Origin: Candidatus Bathyarchaeota archaeon | GTDB lineage: Archaea; Thermoproteota; Bathyarchaeia; TCS64; B23 | Length of the DNA: 47,390 nucleotides | Assembly (NCBI GenBank): GCA_937898665.1 | Contig: CALEIY010000128.1 | Coordinates: 1-47,390 of the forward strand | Direction: 5' to 3' | In this document: positions 1,353 through 41,409 of the stretch, one piece after another | Numbering within the stretch: position 1 is the first letter of the stretch | Layout of the letters: every line of letters begins with the position of its first letter | The notes under the pieces: generated by a model | Databases searched by the model: none | Seen by the model: only the letters and a program-made list of their open reading frames with translations | Told to the model about the DNA's origin: nothing | Translations under genes and position numbers: made by a program

Positions 1353-3705
1353 CACTCGGGTCGATGAAGTGGTTAAGATAGAGAGGATCATCAAGAGGGA
1401 TGGCCGAATCGTTGAGTTTGATCCGGAGAAGATCATCACAGCCATCTGGAAGGCGTTGAAGGCCACGGGGAGAGATGATCGAGAGCTGGCTGAGAGGCTG
1501 GGCTTACAGGTTGTTGATAAGCTGGAGGAGAGATATGCGGGGGAGATGCCCCACGTCGAGGAGATTCAGGACGTCGTCGAGGAGACCCTAGTCGAGAACG
1601 GCCTATACGAGGTGGCGAAGGCCTACATACTATACAGGAGAAGGCGAAGCGAGATCAGGGAGATCAAGAGGCTGCTAGGCGTCACCGACGACCTTAAGCT
1701 GACGCCCAACGCCGTCGAGGTTCTGAGAGCCAGATACCTGCTGAGAGACGAGGAGGGCAGGATCACGGAGACGCCTGGACAGATGCTGATGAGGGTAGCC
1801 AGATACATAGGCCTCGTCGACGCCCTCTACTGGCCCGAGGTCTATGACAGGGAGGGGGGGCAACCTGAACGTAAGACGGAGATGGAGTATGGGGATTATC
1901 ACCCTGGAAGGTCAAACCTCAACCAATACGAGTTCGAGATGCTGAGGAGGCTCTACAACCGCCTGGGAGCGGAGGGGAGGATGAGGGTCAGCTTCCCAGA
2001 GCTCCTAAGCCTCATCGAGGAGCGATGGGACCAGCTCTACGAGGAGACGATAGAGGTCTTCTATCAGACCATGATGAATAGATACTTCCTACCGAACTCG
2101 CCGACCCTGATGAATGCGGGCGCCCCCCTGGGTCAGCTCTCAGCCTGCTTCGTCCTCCCCATAGAGGACTCCATCGAGAGCATCTTCGACGCCCTGAAGG
2201 CGACGGCCATGATCCATAAGAGCGGCGGCGGAACCGGCTTTAACTTCTCAAAGCTGAGGCCGAGGGGCGACATAGTGAAGACGACAAGCGGAGTGGCCTC
2301 GGGGCCTGTGAGCTTCATGCGCATCTTCGACACGGCGACGGAGGTTATAAAGCAGGGGGGTAAGCGTCGAGGAGCTAACATGGGCATATTGAGGGTTGAC
2401 CACCCAGATGTAGAGGAGTTCATCAAGGCGAAGAGGGGTGGAGGCTTCAGGAACTTCAACATCTCCGTCGCCGTCACCGACAAATTCATGGAGGCCCTGG
2501 AGAGGGATGGGGAGTATCCCCTCATCAACCCTAGAAATGGGGAGACGGTTAAGAGGGTTAAGGCGAGGCATATCTTCAACCTCATCGTCGCCAACGCCTG
2601 GGAGACCGGAGACCCAGGTCTCATATTCCTGGACACCATCAACCGGCATAACCCCACACCCCACCTGGGCAGGATAGAGGCGACAAACCCCTGTGGGGAA
2701 GTTCCGCTTCTCCCCTATGAATCCTGTAACCTAGGCTCCATCAACCTATCCCTGATGCTGCGGAAGACCGATGACGGCTACGAGGTGGATTGGAGGAGGC
2801 TGAGGGAGGTCGTCTCCATAGCCACCCACTTCCTAGACAACGTCATAGACGCCAACCTCTATCCGCTGCCCGAGATCGAGGAGGCGACCCTGAGAACCAG
2901 GAAGATTGGCTTAGGGGTCATGGGCTGGGCTGAGATGCTCTTCAAGCTCCGCATCCCCTACGACTCCGAGGAGGCCTTGGAGCTGGCACGGAGGATAATG
3001 GAGTATGTCAACTATCACAGCAAGCTCAAATCCATAGAGTTGGCCAGGGAGCGAGGCCCCTTCCCAGCCTTTAAGGGTTCGATCTACGACGATGAGAGGC
3101 CGAGACTCCCCTTCGAGGCTGAGGGCGAAGAGCGGATCTACAGCCTCGACTGGGATAGGGTTAGGAGACTCATCGGGGAGTGGGGTATAAGGAATGCGAC
3201 GACCACATCCATCGCCCCCACTGGGACTATAAGCATCATAGCTGGAACCTCCAGCGGCATAGAACCAGCCTTCGCCCTCGCCTACATGAGGGTAGTCCTC
3301 AGCGGCGTGAGGATGCTGGAGATAAGCCCAGCCCTCGAGGAAGCCCTGGAGGCTGAGGGCCTCAAACGGGATGAGGTTTTGAGGGAGGTTTTGAAGACTG
3401 GAACCCTGAGGGGCGCTGAGGTTCCCGAGGAATTCCGGAGGATCTTCGTCACCTCCCTAGAAATCGACGCCGATTGGCATGTCAGGATGCAGGCCACCTT
3501 CCAGGAGTTCACCGACAACGCCGTCTCGAAGACCGTAAACCTGAGGGAGGACGCCTCCATCGATGATGTGGAGCGGGTCTTCCTCCTAGCCTATAAGCTG
3601 GGGTGTAAGGGGATCACCGTCTACAGGTATGGGAGTAAGGGGGAGCAGGTTCTATACCTCGGAGCTCCAACGCCTACGCATCCCTGCCCCGTCTGCGAGG
3701 TGTAG
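1333..3705 (+). CDS. nrdJ: class II (adenosylcobalamin-dependent) ribonucleoside-diphosphate reductase
   Basis: Reduces ribonucleotides to deoxyribonucleotides using a coenzyme-B12 radical. An N-terminal ATP-cone (about residues 15-105, IIKRDGRIVEFDPEKI) gives allosteric control, followed by the ten-stranded barrel. The redox thiols are Cys272 (SACFVLP) and Cys465 (ESCNLGSIN); the radical/catalytic trio is Asn452-Cys454-Glu456 in NPCGE. The substrate loop SGGGTGFNFSKLRP and the SIAPTGTIS motif are intact. The protein stops at CPVCEV: it keeps one CxxC for thioredoxin-type re-reduction but lacks the longer zinc-ribbon tail common in class II enzymes. GTG 1333 is used, preceded by GGAGA; GTG 1369 is an alternative. 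The cobalamin adenosyltransferase follows after 7 nt, which fits the cofactor need. Confidence 0.96.
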   Translation: MDLRASNTRVDEVVKIERIIKRDGRIVEFDPEKIITAIWKALKATGRDDRELAERLGLQVVDKLEERYAGEMPHVEEIQDVVEETLVENGLYEVAKAYILYRRRRSEIREIKRLLGVTDDLKLTPNAVEVLRARYLLRDEEGRITETPGQMLMRVARYIGLVDALYWPEVYDREGGQPERKTEMEYGDYHPGRSNLNQYEFEMLRRLYNRLGAEGRMRVSFPELLSLIEERWDQLYEETIEVFYQTMMNRYFLPNSPTLMNAGAPLGQLSACFVLPIEDSIESIFDALKATAMIHKSGGGTGFNFSKLRPRGDIVKTTSGVASGPVSFMRIFDTATEVIKQGGKRRGANMGILRVDHPDVEEFIKAKRGGGFRNFNISVAVTDKFMEALERDGEYPLINPRNGETVKRVKARHIFNLIVANAWETGDPGLIFLDTINRHNPTPHLGRIEATNPCGEVPLLPYESCNLGSINLSLMLRKTDDGYEVDWRRLREVVSIATHFLDNVIDANLYPLPEIEEATLRTRKIGLGVMGWAEMLFKLRIPYDSEEALELARRIMEYVNYHSKLKSIELARERGPFPAFKGSIYDDERPRLPFEAEGEERIYSLDWDRVRRLIGEWGIRNATTTSIAPTGTISIIAGTSSGIEPAFALAYMRVVLSGVRMLEISPALEEALEAEGLKRDEVLREVLKTGTLRGAEVPEEFRRIFVTSLEIDADWHVRMQATFQEFTDNAVSKTVNLREDASIDDVERVFLLAYKLGCKGITVYRYGSKGEQVLYLGAPTPTHPCPVCEV

Positions 3706-13667: not shown

Positions 13668-14144
13668 TTATAGGGGTATGTCGAGGGTCTCCTTAGCCGT
13701 GTCGAAGACCATACAGGTTAGCGTCTTCTCTATCCCCTTCACCATCCTCAGCTTGTCGACGACGAAGCGCCCGATCTCGGCGACGTCTCGGGCCTTAACC
13801 TTTATGAGGATGTCCCAGTCGCCCGTGATGATGTGAACCTCCTGAACCTCTGGGAACCTGGCGATCTCCCTCGCGATCTCCCTCTGATCCAGGGTCTCAC
13901 TGATGCCTGGGGTTCTATATGTGAAGGAGGCGAGTATAAAGGCCGTTGTGGGTCTGCCCAGCTTCTCCGCATCCAGGATGGCCTTATATCCCTTAATTAT
14001 CCCCTGCTCCTCAAGCCGCTTTATGCGTGAGTATATCGTTGTCTGCGGACATCCCAATCGTTCAGCTATCTCCCTCGCCGAGGCCCTCCCATCCCGTTGG
14101 AGGATGTGGAGTATCTCCCTATCCCTATCGTCGAGCTTCATCAT
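13668..14144 (-). CDS. Lrp/AsnC family transcription regulator
   Basis: 158 aa. An N-terminal helix-turn-helix (about residues 4-55, DREILHILQRDGRASAREIA) is followed by an alpha-beta ligand-binding domain (RAM, about 70-145) with the EVHIITGDWDILIKV strand pair typical of the family. It probably forms octamers that sense an amino acid. It is divergent from the aaRS-derived asparagine synthetase gene, the same pairing as AsnC/asnA in E. coli although the synthetase is unrelated. A CATTTTAATG box lies 26.5 nt upstream of ATG 14144, and an inverted repeat sits just behind it. Confidence 0.93.
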   Translation of the reverse strand: MMKLDDRDREILHILQRDGRASAREIAERLGCPQTTIYSRIKRLEEQGIIKGYKAILDAEKLGRPTTAFILASFTYRTPGISETLDQREIAREIARFPEVQEVHIITGDWDILIKVKARDVAEIGRFVVDKLRMVKGIEKTLTCMVFDTAKETLDIPL

Positions 14145-14245: not shown

Positions 14246-15238
14246 ATGATGACCCTGGACGTCGGGGAGTTGAGGGGGAGACTCTGGAGGCGTTACAGGG
14301 AGATTAGAGAACCCTGGATGAGGTGGATGCTGAGGGTTCAGGATGAGGCCCTCTCAGCCCTGAGAGACTTCCTCAGGGGGGAGGGCTTCATAGAGATACT
14401 CGCCCCCATCATCGGGCCGGTGACCGATCCAGGGATCAGGGGTGCGAAGCAGGTCTCCATCGACTATTATGGTGAGAGATTCAAGGTGATGAGCAGCATG
14501 ATACTCTACAAGCAGATGGCCGCCACGGCTCTGGGCAGGATCTTCGCCCTCTCACCGAACATAAGGCTCGAACCCCTAGAGGCCCTCTATACTGGTAGGC
14601 ATCTCGCGGAGTTTAGGCAGCTAGACCTAGAGGTGGCTGAGGCCACATACCTCGACCTCATGGAGCTTGGGGAGAGGATGCTGATCTACGTCCTGAGAAG
14701 AGTTAGGAGGGAGTGCGCCGAGGAGCTGGAGAACCTGGGCAGGGAGCTGAGGATACCCTCCAGACCCTTCAAGAGGCTGACCCACGCCGAGGCCGTTGAG
14801 CTGCTCAGGGAGGAGGGCTTCAACCTCAAGCATGGGGAGGAGATACCCTGGGACGCCGAGAAACACATCTCATCCCTCTTCCAGGAACCCTTCTGGATCA
14901 TAGACTACCCGATAACGGCTAGGGGCTTCTACGACAGGGAAGACCCCGATAGGCCTGGAATCCTCAGGGACTTCGACCTCCTATACCCAGAGGGCTATGG
15001 GGAGGCCATCTCCGGCGGCGAGAGGGAGTATGAATACGAGCGAGTTCTGGCGAGGATGAAGGCGAGGGGAGAAAACCCAGAGGATTATAGCTGGTATCTT
15101 GAGATGCTACGCGAAGGCATAAAGCCCACAGCCGGCTTCGGCATAGGCGTGGAGAGGCTCACCAGATACCTCTGCGGCCTGAAATACATCTGGGACGCCG
15201 TCCCCTTCCCAAAGGTTCCAGGGATACCCTCACCCTAA
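14246..15238 (+). CDS. archaeal-type asparagine synthetase (AsnRS/AspRS-related)
   Basis: 330-aa protein with only the class II aminoacyl-tRNA synthetase catalytic core and no anticodon-binding domain. Motif 2-like LAEFRQLDLEVAEAT and motif 3-like GFGIGVERLTRYLCG are clear, as is the motif 1 region IEILAPIIGPVTDP. This matches the archaeal asparagine synthetase described in Pyrococcus abyssi, which amidates aspartate through aspartyl-AMP. A true AsnRS would be about 430 aa with an N-terminal OB-fold, which is missing here and has no room upstream. The divergent Lrp/AsnC regulator supports a role in asparagine supply. Confidence 0.88.
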   Translation: MMTLDVGELRGRLWRRYREIREPWMRWMLRVQDEALSALRDFLRGEGFIEILAPIIGPVTDPGIRGAKQVSIDYYGERFKVMSSMILYKQMAATALGRIFALSPNIRLEPLEALYTGRHLAEFRQLDLEVAEATYLDLMELGERMLIYVLRRVRRECAEELENLGRELRIPSRPFKRLTHAEAVELLREEGFNLKHGEEIPWDAEKHISSLFQEPFWIIDYPITARGFYDREDPDRPGILRDFDLLYPEGYGEAISGGEREYEYERVLARMKARGENPEDYSWYLEMLREGIKPTAGFGIGVERLTRYLCGLKYIWDAVPFPKVPGIPSP

Positions 15239-15243
15239 ATAGA

Positions 15244-15325
15244 GGGAGGAGTCTATCCCAGAGGACTCATCTAAGGCCTCCTCCCCCTGAAAGACCTATG
15301 GGAAACCGCCAATCCAGGCTGGATT
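15244..15325. other. hairpin-rich intergenic stretch
   Basis: Within the 216-base gap after the asparagine synthetase gene are GGGAGGAG (15244-15251) with CTCCTCCC (15278-15285), a nested GAGTC/GACTC pair (15249-15253 and 15264-15268), and a perfect 15-nt palindrome AATCCAGGCTGGATT (15311-15325). They could fold in RNA or form cruciforms. No coding frame or tRNA is seen here. Confidence 0.35.
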
Positions 15326-15362
15326 TCACCTCCTTATTCACGATAATGGCATCAAAGCCCAA

Positions 15363-15411
15363 CCTATAACAGCCCTATAATTTTCCCATGATGTTAATGG
15401 TTCCATTAACC
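15363..15411 (+). repeat. intergenic palindromic element, copy A
   Basis: A 49-bp element that recurs, inverted, at 41119-41167 with about 41 matching positions and no gap. The outline is CTATAAC, five variable bases, TATAATTTTCCCA, then a 16-bp palindrome TTAATGGTTCCATTAA (within a perfect 18-bp palindrome here, 15393-15410) ending CC. It lies 44 bases upstream of the TrmI-like gene. TATAATTT inside it could act as a TATA box. Its function is unknown. Confidence 0.75.
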
Positions 15412-15454
15412 AACTCAGGAAGCTTTTAGGCCTCTAAACCCCCTAGAAATCGAG

Positions 15455-16225
15455 ATGGAGCTCATCGAGGAGGGGTGCGACGTCCTCCTATACCTCGACC
15501 ATCGAAGAACATACCTGGTGAAGGTTAGGGGAGACAGAGAATTCCACACCCATAAGGGATTCATACGCCTCGGGGAGCTCATCGGAAAGCCCTATGGATG
15601 CGCCGTAGAGAGCAATCTCGGCGTCCGATTCTACGCTCTAAAGCCCCTTATAAGGGATAGGGTTTTGAAGACAGAGCGGAGAACCCAGGTCATCTACCCG
15701 AAGGATATGGGCTTCATACTCCTCATGGCCGATGTGGGGCCTGGAAGCAGGGTTGTGGAGGCTGGAACGGGGAGCGGGGCGCTAACCCTCGCCCTCGCCA
15801 ACGCCGTGAAACCGGATGGAAAGATCTACAGCTATGAGATACGGCGGGAATTCCAGAGGGCTGCGATGAGGAACATCGAGAGGGCGGGCCTAGCAGACTA
15901 CGTCGAGTTCAAGCTCCGCGACATCACAGAGGGGATAGAGGAGGAAGAGGTGGATGCCGTCATCCTCGACATGGCGACGCCCTGGCTCGTCGTCCCCCAC
16001 GCCCATAAGGCCCTAAAGGGTGGGGGAGTCTTCCTCTCCTTCAGCCCAACCATAGAGCAGGTTATGCGAACCGTCTCAGCCCTGAGGGAACACCCCTTCA
16101 TCGAGGTGGAGACCTATGAGATCATGCTGAGGCGCTTCATCGTCGAGGAGAATCGGACGAGGCCCGAGACCCTGATGATAGGGCATACGGGATATATAAC
16201 GGTGGGGAGGAAGGTCTTAGAATAG
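15455..16225 (+). CDS. trmI: tRNA (adenine-N1)-methyltransferase, TrmI family
   Basis: Makes m1A at position 57/58 of the tRNA T-loop. The N-terminal beta domain ends in RTQVIYPKDMGFIL, the hallmark of TrmI; the Rossmann SAM-binding loop follows (VVEAGTGSGALT, about residues 97-108), with acidic IYSYEIRREF closing the ribose site and LDMATPW in place of the catalytic D/N-P-P-like motif. 256 aa is the usual archaeal length. ATG 15455 is the first Met of the domain. The M42 peptidase starts at its stop codon, so the two are co-transcribed. Confidence 0.94.
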   Translation: MELIEEGCDVLLYLDHRRTYLVKVRGDREFHTHKGFIRLGELIGKPYGCAVESNLGVRFYALKPLIRDRVLKTERRTQVIYPKDMGFILLMADVGPGSRVVEAGTGSGALTLALANAVKPDGKIYSYEIRREFQRAAMRNIERAGLADYVEFKLRDITEGIEEEEVDAVILDMATPWLVVPHAHKALKGGGVFLSFSPTIEQVMRTVSALREHPFIEVETYEIMLRRFIVEENRTRPETLMIGHTGYITVGRKVLE

Positions 16226-38748: not shown

Positions 38749-39318
38749 CTACTCCTCGAGATCTGCCCTACAATCCTCGCAGAGAAATTCGCCTGAGATG
38801 GCTTTGAGATTGGTGGAGTAGCATCCACATCGATCGCAGTAGCCCACGAGGGAGGGGCCGCTGGGGGCCTCACTGCTCATAATCCTCGATCTCTCCTGAA
38901 CTATCTCGATGATATCTGGAACTACCCTCAATATGTCCCTGTCGGAGATGATGCCCAGCAGCCGCCCCTTATAGGTGACGCCCAGCCTCCGAATATTCAA
39001 TCTATTCATCATGGTCATGGCATCCAGCAGGCTGGTCTCTGGGCCGACGGTTCTAAGAGGCGTCGACATCACCTCTCCAGCCTTAGCCTCCGCGGGGTTG
39101 ACACCCTTCGCCACAACCCTTAGAACTATGTCGCGTTCGGTGACGATTCCGACGGGCTGTCCATCCCTCCTGGTGACGATGACGGCTCCAATCCCATTTT
39201 CGTCCATGATCCTAGCCACCTCAACTATGCTGGCCTCCTCGTCGACGGTTATGACGGGGCTGGTCATCGCCTCCCTCACCAGCATCCTAGGCGTCAGCTC
39301 CAGATCCAAGCGGAGCAC
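38749..39318 (-). CDS. CBS-pair protein with C-terminal zinc ribbon
   Basis: 189 aa. Two CBS motifs (about 14-70 and 78-135: VREAMTSPVITVDEEASIV, VGIVTERDIV, AGEVMSTPLRTV, GIISDRDILRV) form a nucleotide-sensing Bateman module, and the last 45 residues hold a zinc ribbon (CDRCGCYSTNL, CEDC). It may sense ATP/AMP or SAM and regulate a partner; unknown. GTG 39318 has a GATAAAAAG box centred 27 nt upstream; ATG 39285 is an alternative. Confidence 0.88.
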   Translation of the reverse strand: MLRLDLELTPRMLVREAMTSPVITVDEEASIVEVARIMDENGIGAVIVTRRDGQPVGIVTERDIVLRVVAKGVNPAEAKAGEVMSTPLRTVGPETSLLDAMTMMNRLNIRRLGVTYKGRLLGIISDRDILRVVPDIIEIVQERSRIMSSEAPSGPSLVGYCDRCGCYSTNLKAISGEFLCEDCRADLEE

Positions 39319-39340
39319 CGAATCAAAGAGGAGAGGAGTG

Positions 39341-39349
39341 GATAAAAAG
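39341..39349 (-). promoter_or_regulatory. TATA box of the CBS-zinc gene
   Basis: GATAAAAAG (CTTTTTATC on the minus strand), centred 27 nt from GTG 39318. Confidence 0.5.
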
Positions 39350-39419
39350 TGTTGTGATGAACCCTATGACGCCGCTTGGAGGCTTCAAAAAGCGTCTCAT
39401 GAAGCTGAAGGGAAACCAC

Positions 39420-39429
39420 TTTTTAAAAA
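39420..39429 (+). promoter_or_regulatory. TATA box of the ribophorin-like gene
   Basis: TTTTTAAAAA, centred 27.5 nt before ATG 39452; it supports that start over the longer frame, which runs through the CBS gene. Together with AAAAAGTG at 39344-39351 it forms an 8-bp inverted repeat (CACTTTTT, 39417-39424). Confidence 0.55.
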
Positions 39430-39451
39430 TCAACCAACCATATACTCTGCG

Positions 39452-41119
39452 ATGTCTCAGACGCCCCTAATCCTCATAGCCCTCCTTCTACTACCAACTC
39501 CCGCAATCCATCAATCCATCGATGGAATCAGCGTGGAGAGATACGTGGAGCTCCAACCTGGGGGAGTCCTCCTCATCAATGACACCATAACCCTGAACGC
39601 GGCGATCACGGTTCTCTACATCAGGCAGCCGGAGGGTTGGAGGGAGGAGGAGGCGGCCTTCCAGCTCTACGAGATGAATGGATGGAAACCCATCGAATTC
39701 GAGACCTTAGAGAAGGGGGAGGCCAGATGGTTTATGATCCACCTCCCACCTGGTGGAGATCTCTATAGGTTGAGGGCCTCATACCTCTACGCCGACGAGG
39801 TGAGATGGAGAGGTGGAAACTACTCACTTGAAATGCCCTTATACCCAGCCCTCGCCGATGATCCCTTAAACCCCTCAAGTTGGAATATCACCCACCTCAC
39901 CTTCAAGGCATATCTCCCCGAGGGATCAAAGCTCATGAAGGTGGATTCCCCTCTCTCCATCTACAACTCCACGGTGGATGGCCGCAGCCTTCTAAGCCTC
40001 GTGTCGGGGACTCCCCTCGACGCCCTCCAACCCCCCTCAGCCATCATCGAATATACTCCATCGCCGAGTGAGGGGCATCCAATTAGGATTGATTCCCTGA
40101 GGGTTAGGGTGCGGATTGGATGGGGGATAGGCGTCGAGGAGGATTACACCATCGTAAATGTGGATGGAAACCTTGAGAGTCTCCATTTAAGGCTTCCCAG
40201 AGGGGCGGGAGGGGTTAAGGCCTATGATAGGGCTGGCCCCTTAAAGGTGAGCAGCAAGACTGATGATAGAGGCGTCGACGTCTACATCTACCCCAGATCG
40301 GCTGTCGGGGTCGATGAGAGGTGGAGCTTCACCCTCAGATACACCCTGCCAAAGCGTGGACTCATAACGAGGAGCAAATCGAGGTATCGGTTGACATATA
40401 ACCTCACCCATCCACCCTGCTATATCTCCCAGGCCTCAGTAGAGGTTAGACTTCCAGATGGGGGAATCCCGACGGCTAATCAACCCGCGGGGGAGGTGGA
40501 GAGGATCTCTTACATCGCCTATAGGGTTTCAATATCCCTGGGTGGGATTGCACCTCTAGAGGAGATGGCGATCTCCATCGATTATAGATGGACACCCTTC
40601 TGGCTTATATTGAGGCCGATGCTATGGGGCCTCCTGATAGCTGCGATCACGGCTGTGGTCCTCCTACCCATCAGAGGGCGGAGGAGGGTGGAGGTAGAGG
40701 AGAAGCCGACGACGCTGGAGGAGTTCCTGGAGCTCTATGATCGACGTATAGGGCTGCTCATCGAGTTGGAGGAGCTGGAGGAGGAGCTGGAGAGGAAGGA
40801 GATCGGTCGGGAACGCTTTGAGAGGGAGTCCGCGGAGACTCATAGGAGATTGATGGAGCTCTCAAGACGGCTGAGACGGCTGGAGGCGAGGCTCCTGGAG
40901 GAGAGGCCTGAGCTGTCGGAGGAGTTGGAGGGGCTGAGGATGGCTGAGGAGGAGCTGGAGAGGGCGATGGCGGCCCTGAGGAGCCTGGAGAGGAGGCTGA
41001 GGAGGAGGCGCATCTCCAGGAGGGACTACGTGGAGAGGAGGCGTGAACATATCGAGAGGCGGCGCAGGGCGCTTAGGAGGATCGAGGAGGCCATCTCAGC
41101 CCTCAGGGGCTCGGCCTAG
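39452..41119 (+). CDS. type I membrane protein, ribophorin-I-like layout
   Basis: 555 aa. Signal peptide (MSQTPLILIALLLLPTP), an external beta-rich region of about 370 residues, one transmembrane helix (LLIAAITAVVLLP, about 390-407) and a cytoplasmic tail of about 150 residues that is almost all charged coiled coil. The external part (SVERYVELQPGGVLLINDTI, MPLYPALADDP and later TLRYTLPKRG) has the look of ribophorin I (Ost1), the oligosaccharyltransferase subunit, and contains sequons such as NDT, NYS, NIT, NST and NLT. Homology is not shown. ATG 39452 follows a good TATA box; the frame upstream is antisense to the CBS gene. Confidence 0.7.
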   Translation: MSQTPLILIALLLLPTPAIHQSIDGISVERYVELQPGGVLLINDTITLNAAITVLYIRQPEGWREEEAAFQLYEMNGWKPIEFETLEKGEARWFMIHLPPGGDLYRLRASYLYADEVRWRGGNYSLEMPLYPALADDPLNPSSWNITHLTFKAYLPEGSKLMKVDSPLSIYNSTVDGRSLLSLVSGTPLDALQPPSAIIEYTPSPSEGHPIRIDSLRVRVRIGWGIGVEEDYTIVNVDGNLESLHLRLPRGAGGVKAYDRAGPLKVSSKTDDRGVDVYIYPRSAVGVDERWSFTLRYTLPKRGLITRSKSRYRLTYNLTHPPCYISQASVEVRLPDGGIPTANQPAGEVERISYIAYRVSISLGGIAPLEEMAISIDYRWTPFWLILRPMLWGLLIAAITAVVLLPIRGRRRVEVEEKPTTLEEFLELYDRRIGLLIELEELEEELERKEIGRERFERESAETHRRLMELSRRLRRLEARLLEERPELSEELEGLRMAEEELERAMAALRSLERRLRRRRISRRDYVERRREHIERRRRALRRIEEAISALRGSA

Positions 41120-41167
41120 GTTAATGGTTCCATTAATATCCTGGGAAAATTATAACTCCGTTATAGA
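41119..41167 (-). repeat. intergenic palindromic element, copy B
   Basis: The second copy of the element at 15363-15411, here in the opposite orientation, starting at the last base of the preceding stop codon and ending 60 bases before the ferredoxin start. It keeps TTAATGG-NN-CCATTAA and TGGGAAAATTATA (the reverse of TATAATTTTCCCA) and CTATAAC at the far end; differences are concentrated in a five-base block and the two centre bases. Confidence 0.75.
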
Positions 41168-41226: not shown

Positions 41227-41409
41227 ATGCCGACTATAACCATAGACTATGAGAAATGCACCTTCTGCCAGACCTGTGTAAGCACCTGCCCCATGGGTGT
41301 CTATGAGGTTCAGGGGGACAAGGTCGTCGTCGCAAACCCTGATGAATGCGTCGTCTGCAGAGCCTGTGAGGCAGCCTGCCCAAATGAGGCTATAACCGTC
41401 GAGGAGTAA
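41227..41409 (+). CDS. 2[4Fe-4S] ferredoxin
   Basis: 60 aa, electron carrier with two CxxCxxCxxxCP motifs (CTFCQTCVSTCP, about 11-22, and CVVCRACEAACP, about 41-52), so two [4Fe-4S] clusters. Very short, with no extension. GGGGGT lies about 5 nt before ATG 41227, and GATTTAAAAG further up may be its TATA box. The repeat element sits upstream. A T-run follows the gene. Confidence 0.95.
   Translation: MPTITIDYEKCTFCQTCVSTCPMGVYEVQGDKVVVANPDECVVCRACEAACPNEAITVEE

Follow-up and report, generated by a model that had tools for sequence, protein, structure and literature searches.

The 47,390-nt stretch of bathyarchaeal DNA analysed here (the window) carries a short palindromic sequence in two copies of opposite orientation, and the question raised by this locus is what such a sequence is for: a two-part protein-binding site, a promoter for a small RNA, or a miniature mobile element, the three readings offered in a first-pass annotation of the same DNA.

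Structure of the repeated element

The two copies had been described as aligning over 49 bp without gaps and with about 8 mismatches. When positions 15363-15411 are set against the reverse complement of 41119-41167, 9 mismatches are counted (8 if the outermost base is omitted), and they cluster much as had been reported, chiefly in the loop and right arm of a left-hand palindrome, P1, and at the centre of a right-hand one, P2. Only the right-hand palindrome had been recognised in that description; the left-hand one, ATAAC-N3-GTTAT, had been overlooked. The whole element is 47 bp long and is made up of P1, a T-rich middle (AATTTTTCCANGAT) that includes TTATAA / GGAAAAATTATAA, and P2 (GTTAATG-N4-CATTAAC), with the centres of P1 and P2 some 29-30 bp apart, about three helical turns. 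The symmetry of P1 is evident in copy 2 and in most other copies and is half-degenerate in copy 1. Three versions of P2 can be distinguished: class 1, GTTAATGGnnCCATTAAC; class 2, GTTAATGGTGGCgcTaAC and similar sequences; and class 3, GTGACTGGTGGCnnTCAC.

Both copies are intergenic, as had been stated. Copy 1 (15364-15410, + strand) lies downstream of an AsnRS-like class II tRNA-synthetase-domain gene (14246-15238, +) and 44 nt before the ATG of a TrmI-type tRNA methyltransferase gene (15455-16225, +). Its P1, ATAACAGCCCTAT (15366-15378, +), has a degenerate right arm and is followed by the T-rich middle, AATTTTCCCATGAT (15379-15392, +), and by P2, GTTAATGGTTCCATTAAC (15393-15410, +), a perfect palindrome about TT. 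Directly downstream is a putative TATA-like box, CTTTTAGG (15423-15430, +), at -32 to -25 relative to the TrmI ATG. Copy 2 (41120-41166, - strand) runs in the opposite orientation, between a Ribophorin_I-domain gene (38975-41119, +; the start of this ORF is uncertain), whose stop codon abuts P2, and a 2x[4Fe-4S] ferredoxin gene (41227-41409, +), whose ATG at 41227 is 60 nt from P1. Here P1, ATAACGGAGTTAT (41152-41164, -), is a perfect palindrome, and P2, ATTAATGGAACCATTAAC (41120-41137, -), has A/C as its outer pair and reads GTTAATGG... in the sister species G001.

Occurrence in related genomes

The genome to which the window belongs (G000; 1.83 Mb in 255 contigs, 95% complete) was compared with two sister species of the same genus, G001 and G002, and with a more distant member of that genus, G003, which is 68% complete; the draft genomes are in 140-255 contigs. 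The core palindrome TTAATGGNNCCATTAA occurs in the 1.83 Mb of G000 in 5 exact copies and 1 copy with one mismatch, far in excess of chance (a reversed control pattern gave 0), and all six of these close copies carry the entire 47-bp block. When two variant classes are counted as well, the total for G000 rises to 10. Using profiles made from sequence only (R1, built on six copies, and R2, on 17), the element was located at 13 places in G000 and at 11 each in G001 and G002 (E <= 0.001), with some marginal variants included. A search of the genome and its relatives was the check that the first-pass annotation had proposed, with a lack of further copies as the outcome that would speak against an element; what was found instead was additional intergenic copies, standing before the same genes in the sister species.

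Outside these three species the element was not seen, either in G003 or in the other 28 genomes of the order (profile search, E <= 0.001), and the R1 profile gave no convincing match in another 29 genomes of the class. The exact full-length class-1-type pattern, run against 84,980 species, matched only the two sister species, as the Bathyarchaeota MAGs AUK253 and S8B1_HD70. Exact scans of viral contigs gave 1, 0 and 2 matches, which were set aside as chance-like, all three lying in apparent coding regions of unrelated phages. In G003, P1-like palindromes on contigs C63 and C72 were likewise rejected as copies, P2 and the rest being missing; the one on C63 (CTATAACACTGTTATA, near 2004-2042) lies, by eye, between HTH-regulator-like and copper-type P-ATPase-like genes.

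The orthologous positions at which copies recur among the three species are AsnRS/trmI, ribophorin-like/ferredoxin, PEPCK/aminotransferase, HEPN-MNT/luciferase-like operon, tRNA-Arg, tRNA-Gly/topoisomerase, priL/priS, sfsA, DUF3303/PadR, the Cas6 region, a PfkB-type kinase and a provirus. Where a copy is missing from one of the three genomes, the flanking genes are mostly absent from that assembly too. G003 has trmI and sfsA loci that are devoid of the element and that retain TATA-like boxes, the one at trmI resembling CTTTTAGG; they are not clean empty sites, because the surrounding non-coding DNA differs as well.

This distribution bears on the suggestion of a mobile element. In its fullest form this would be a non-autonomous repeat, similar to REP or MITE sequences and perhaps released by integrated viruses, whose copies spread in the common ancestor of the three species and have since been inherited passively. 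The element's presence in proviruses and its absence from the distant genus member agree with that suggestion, as do the element-free trmI and sfsA loci of G003, the association with proviral modules and tRNA genes, the indel breakpoints that abut the element at C7 and C117, and the similar distribution of a second repeat, B, which adjoins the element at trmI in the window and at C59/C43. The copies do not differ between relatives in the way this would imply, however, but stand at the same places in G000, G001 and G002; there are only 10-13 of them, no transposase flanked by a pair of copies was found among the matches, and neither a consistent target duplication nor a clean empty site was seen, though some loci fall in unassembled parts. 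(The CCAAC found on either side of copy 1 was considered as a target-site duplication and discarded, since it is not retained in G001 or G002.) Passive inheritance of a mobile repeat is accordingly judged improbable, though the copies may have originated as repeats, which would be compatible with a present function.

Repeat B is itself a dispersed sequence of about 97 bp, found in the window at 15242-15342 (+), 21 nt upstream of copy 1. Its two conserved boxes, GGGGTCTATCCCAGGGG and CCGCCANTNNNNNCTGGATTTCACATCCTTGTTCACG, flank a variable middle of almost constant length. At <= 3 mismatches there are 8, 5, 5 and 0 copies in G000, G001, G002 and G003, respectively; the repeat is next to the element at two loci, trmI and PfkB, and no consensus fold was found for it. 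As a separate observation, positions 2663-2762 (-) of an examined stretch of G001 (L190, on C67) match the Rfam family PYLIS_3, the pyrrolysine insertion sequence of mttB, with a score of 46.6 bits, a hint that pyrrolysine may be used in this lineage.

Sequence conservation and covariation

Divergence was measured in one species pair per locus at 12 loci, with an indel-aware alignment of the flanks. Changes were found at 9 of 456 positions (2.0%) in the arms and middle, at 11 of 84 (13%) in the palindrome centres, or loops, and at 49 of 701 (7.0%, with 5.9% gap columns) in the adjacent non-coding flanks (core vs flank, p = 8e-5; core vs loops, p = 4e-5; per-locus Wilcoxon, p = 0.01). The arms thus change 3.5-fold more slowly than the flanks and show no indels, and the centres are not slower. 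Since the arms and middle diverge less than either the centres or the flanks, the element is under selection, which also tells against a passively inherited repeat; and conserved arms around free centres are the mark of a symmetric binding site, as predicted here.

The paired arms also change together. Among 20 distinct copies of all classes, 87.9% of the cells are paired, against 80.6% in shuffles, and two-sided changes are seen at 6 arm pairs where the shuffled mean is 2.7, a signal that collapses when the partners are slid; the replacement of GTTAATG/CATTAAC by GTGACTG/CAGTCAC is one example. From their symmetry and their covariation, both P1 and P2 have the two-fold symmetry of such a site. 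Covarying arms could also be those of a structured RNA or a small-RNA gene, and P2 is able to form a 7-bp hairpin, yet this explanation is barely tenable: symmetric DNA sites covary likewise, the stem is AU-rich, folding is no more stable than that of shuffled sequences (z from -0.8 to 0.0), and no Rfam family was detected at the two window copies or at the four other close copies, where only tRNA matches were obtained at gathering thresholds.

At two loci, C217 and C246, the P2 centre is TT in one species but AA in its sister, a double change equivalent to inversion of the palindrome in place. This is what would be expected if the element were a chromosome-maintenance site of the parS, dif or recombinase type, bound by a partition or recombination protein, and the existence of around a dozen scattered palindromes, most of them intergenic and with no fixed orientation, and of a tyrosine-recombinase-like fragment (identified by eye) near C216 could be read in the same way. 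The centre changes may, however, reflect a mere absence of constraint, and such a site would not account for the consistent nearness of the element to gene starts or for its exact placement at the starts of regulator and proviral genes, as described below; we regard this role as very improbable.

Genes adjoining the element

At 11 of 13 loci a protein or tRNA gene begins 1-66 nt beyond an edge of the element, which may point either way (start codons are those of the ORF calls, and the figure of 11/13 varies with the grouping of split or near-identical loci such as C178/C191). The P2 side faces the gene at trmI (44 nt to the start), aminotransferase (50), priS (63, in G001), sfsA (30) and an M28-type peptidase (48), and the P1 side at ferredoxin (60), the luciferase-like operon (44), tRNA-Arg (55), cas6 (66) and a proviral gene (1). 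The exceptions are the DUF3303 and PfkB loci, with the start some 150 nt off, and C100, where the copy sits between convergent tRNA-Gly and topoisomerase genes with no start nearby. Several loci have a TATA-like box in the interval that separates the element from the start of the gene. No common theme was found among the genes beside the copies.

Other roles in transcription were considered and rejected. A T-run towards the 3' end of the upstream gene, as for a terminator, is present at only some of the loci; a promoter acting in one direction does not agree with the roughly half of the loci that point the opposite way, or with the separate TATA-like boxes at several of them. The earlier idea of a small RNA promoter is weakened by the same half-and-half orientation to the nearest gene and by the lack of excess folding stability. 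With the element mostly placed immediately 5' of the promoter, whichever way it points, an operator fits better than either a promoter or a terminator. The two-part protein-binding site thus emerges as the best supported of the three original guesses, with its additional intergenic copies, the same genes in the sister species, the arms kept and the centres free; we put at about 0.7 the probability that the element is a dispersed cis-acting operator, whichever protein binds it.

Several other features of these neighbourhoods may be recorded. In G000 only, a HEPN-MNT pair of toxin-antitoxin type separates the element from priS (C7, compared with C36 of G001 and C3 of G002), and a second such pair, adjoining another copy (C217 of G000), is largely deleted in G001 (C9). 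On C191 of G000 the sequence upstream of the element contains repeats of a short unit resembling GTTCCATGAAGAGAG, which probably form a CRISPR array.

A candidate regulator in provirus-like regions

Variant copies of the element are also found on a two-gene module that encodes an 80-aa Zn-ribbon protein and a small, putative ribbon-helix-helix (RHH) protein. On C101, P1 (CTATAACACTGTTATAG) is immediately 5' of the ATG of the Zn-ribbon gene; on C91 and C216, P1, TATAATTTT and another palindrome (ATAAGTGGTGGCCACTTAT) overlap the RHH start; and on C185 and on C11 of G002 the region of the RHH start contains a class-3 P2 together with the AATTTTTTCCCAGGAT block. A site is thus present at the candidate regulator's own gene on C91, C216, C185 and G002 C11, and before the Zn-ribbon gene of C101. 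No recognisable operator was found at the RHH orthologue of G001 (C93). The class-3 P2 module adjoins rpsB in G001 and G002, and C101 additionally codes for homologues of proviral genes. Among the 32 genomes of the order, strong matches to the module occur solely in G000, G001 and G002, the same set that has the element, though as these three form one clade the co-distribution counts as a single event and is weak evidence.

A complete class-1 element is present in a head-tail provirus of G001 and G002, where its edge lies 1 nt ahead of the ATG of a small gene, itself two genes upstream of that for terminase; homologues of terminase, portal, capsid and tape-measure proteins are encoded nearby or in the G000 counterparts. 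Provirus-like head-tail regions with terminase, portal, capsid and tape-measure genes were noted on C185, C239 and C101 of G000, C69 of G001 and C41 of G002, and they also carry an ABC-ATPase/acetyltransferase gene.

The RHH protein of C101 matches RHH_1 with E = 0.003, a score that falls short of the Pfam curated cut-off. The candidate protein also matches the PHROG family phrog_4738, 'transcriptional repressor', with E = 5e-4, and its best PDB sequence match is NikR (E = 0.01). An AlphaFold model of low confidence (pLDDT 65) has a strand-helix-helix order, with helices at 17-25 and 32-52; Foldseek gave nothing significant with the monomer model.

From position and co-occurrence the RHH protein is the most likely candidate binder, and the proposal that it binds the operator, as part of a system shared by the host chromosome and the proviruses, has in our estimate somewhat less than an even chance of being right. 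It is also conceivable, though rather unlikely, that the same operator is bound by some other host regulator, for example a winged-helix protein of the Lrp/AsnC or PadR type, and that the proviruses carry sites for host control. The evidence from selection and position does not depend on the identity of the binder, the 18-bp palindrome suits a helix-turn-helix dimer, and suitable genes are at hand: an Lrp/AsnC gene (13668-14144) some 1.2 kb from copy 1, and two PadR-like genes near the C133 copy. Unlike the RHH modules, however, the Lrp and PadR genes have no copy of the element immediately at their starts.

Protein binding at the element, the RHH identity of the binder and the direction of control are what we infer in the following scheme. 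A dimeric or tetrameric protein would read the arms of P1 and P2 as double-stranded DNA and control the adjoining promoter; if it is the RHH protein, encoded in the module beside rpsB on the chromosome and in the provirus-like regions, a dimer or higher oligomer would bind P1 and P2 cooperatively. With the element just upstream of the TATA box at most host loci, the bound protein could activate, or could repress through protein spreading, so that control of host genes could be positive or negative. At the proviral and regulator loci, where P1 is directly on the start codon, repression by blocking of initiation would be expected. For all three symmetric versions of P2 to be bound within one genome, paralogous binders or a relaxed specificity would be required. 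A further step, unlikely and put forward as speculation, is that a virus-derived RHH repressor was domesticated in this lineage of Bathyarchaeia, its two-palindrome operator having come to stand at roughly a dozen core genes, among them those for tRNA, tRNA methyltransferase, primase, ferredoxin and Cas6, to give one circuit common to host and proviruses.

Comparison with known systems

The Bathyarchaeia are abundant and almost uncultured, and to our knowledge gene regulation in them is essentially unmapped; the analysis supplies a defined cis-element, conserved and paired with a specific candidate binder, that lends itself to in-vitro tests requiring no culture. It may also provide an instance of a viral regulator that has become part of a host network.

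Like the REP, REPIN and BIME sequences and the MITEs of bacteria, the element is short, palindromic, mostly extragenic and dispersed. It differs from them in having about a dozen copies as against hundreds, in its fixed positions in three species, in its selected arms and in having no known link to a transposase. It resembles the archaeal BRE/TATA promoter in the TTATAA / GGAAAAATTATAA of its middle, but consists of two selected palindromes, occurs in mixed orientation and has separate TATA-like boxes downstream of it at several loci. RHH operators of the CopG/NikR type are two-fold symmetric and similar in size to the element, and NikR is the nearest PDB sequence to the candidate regulator, as given above; the present sites differ in that no metal or copy-number context was seen and two palindromes are combined in a fixed 47-bp unit.

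The closest parallels lie with the RHH factors of archaeal viruses. SvtR of SIRV1 and F55 of SSV1 bind their own and other promoters, including positions upstream of TATA, and for viral RHH factors such as SvtR spreading along the DNA has been proposed as the mode of action (PMC5569661). Shared with the present case are a small regulator, here a putative RHH protein, the provirus-like context, the presence of sites both at the gene of the regulator itself and at further viral promoters, and the location of those sites upstream of, or overlapping, promoter elements. The sequence and two-palindrome layout found here differ from the tandem repeat bound by F55 and from the sites of SvtR and AvtR. 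The other difference is that here, where binding is predicted, matching sites are conserved at about a dozen loci of the host core genome in three species.
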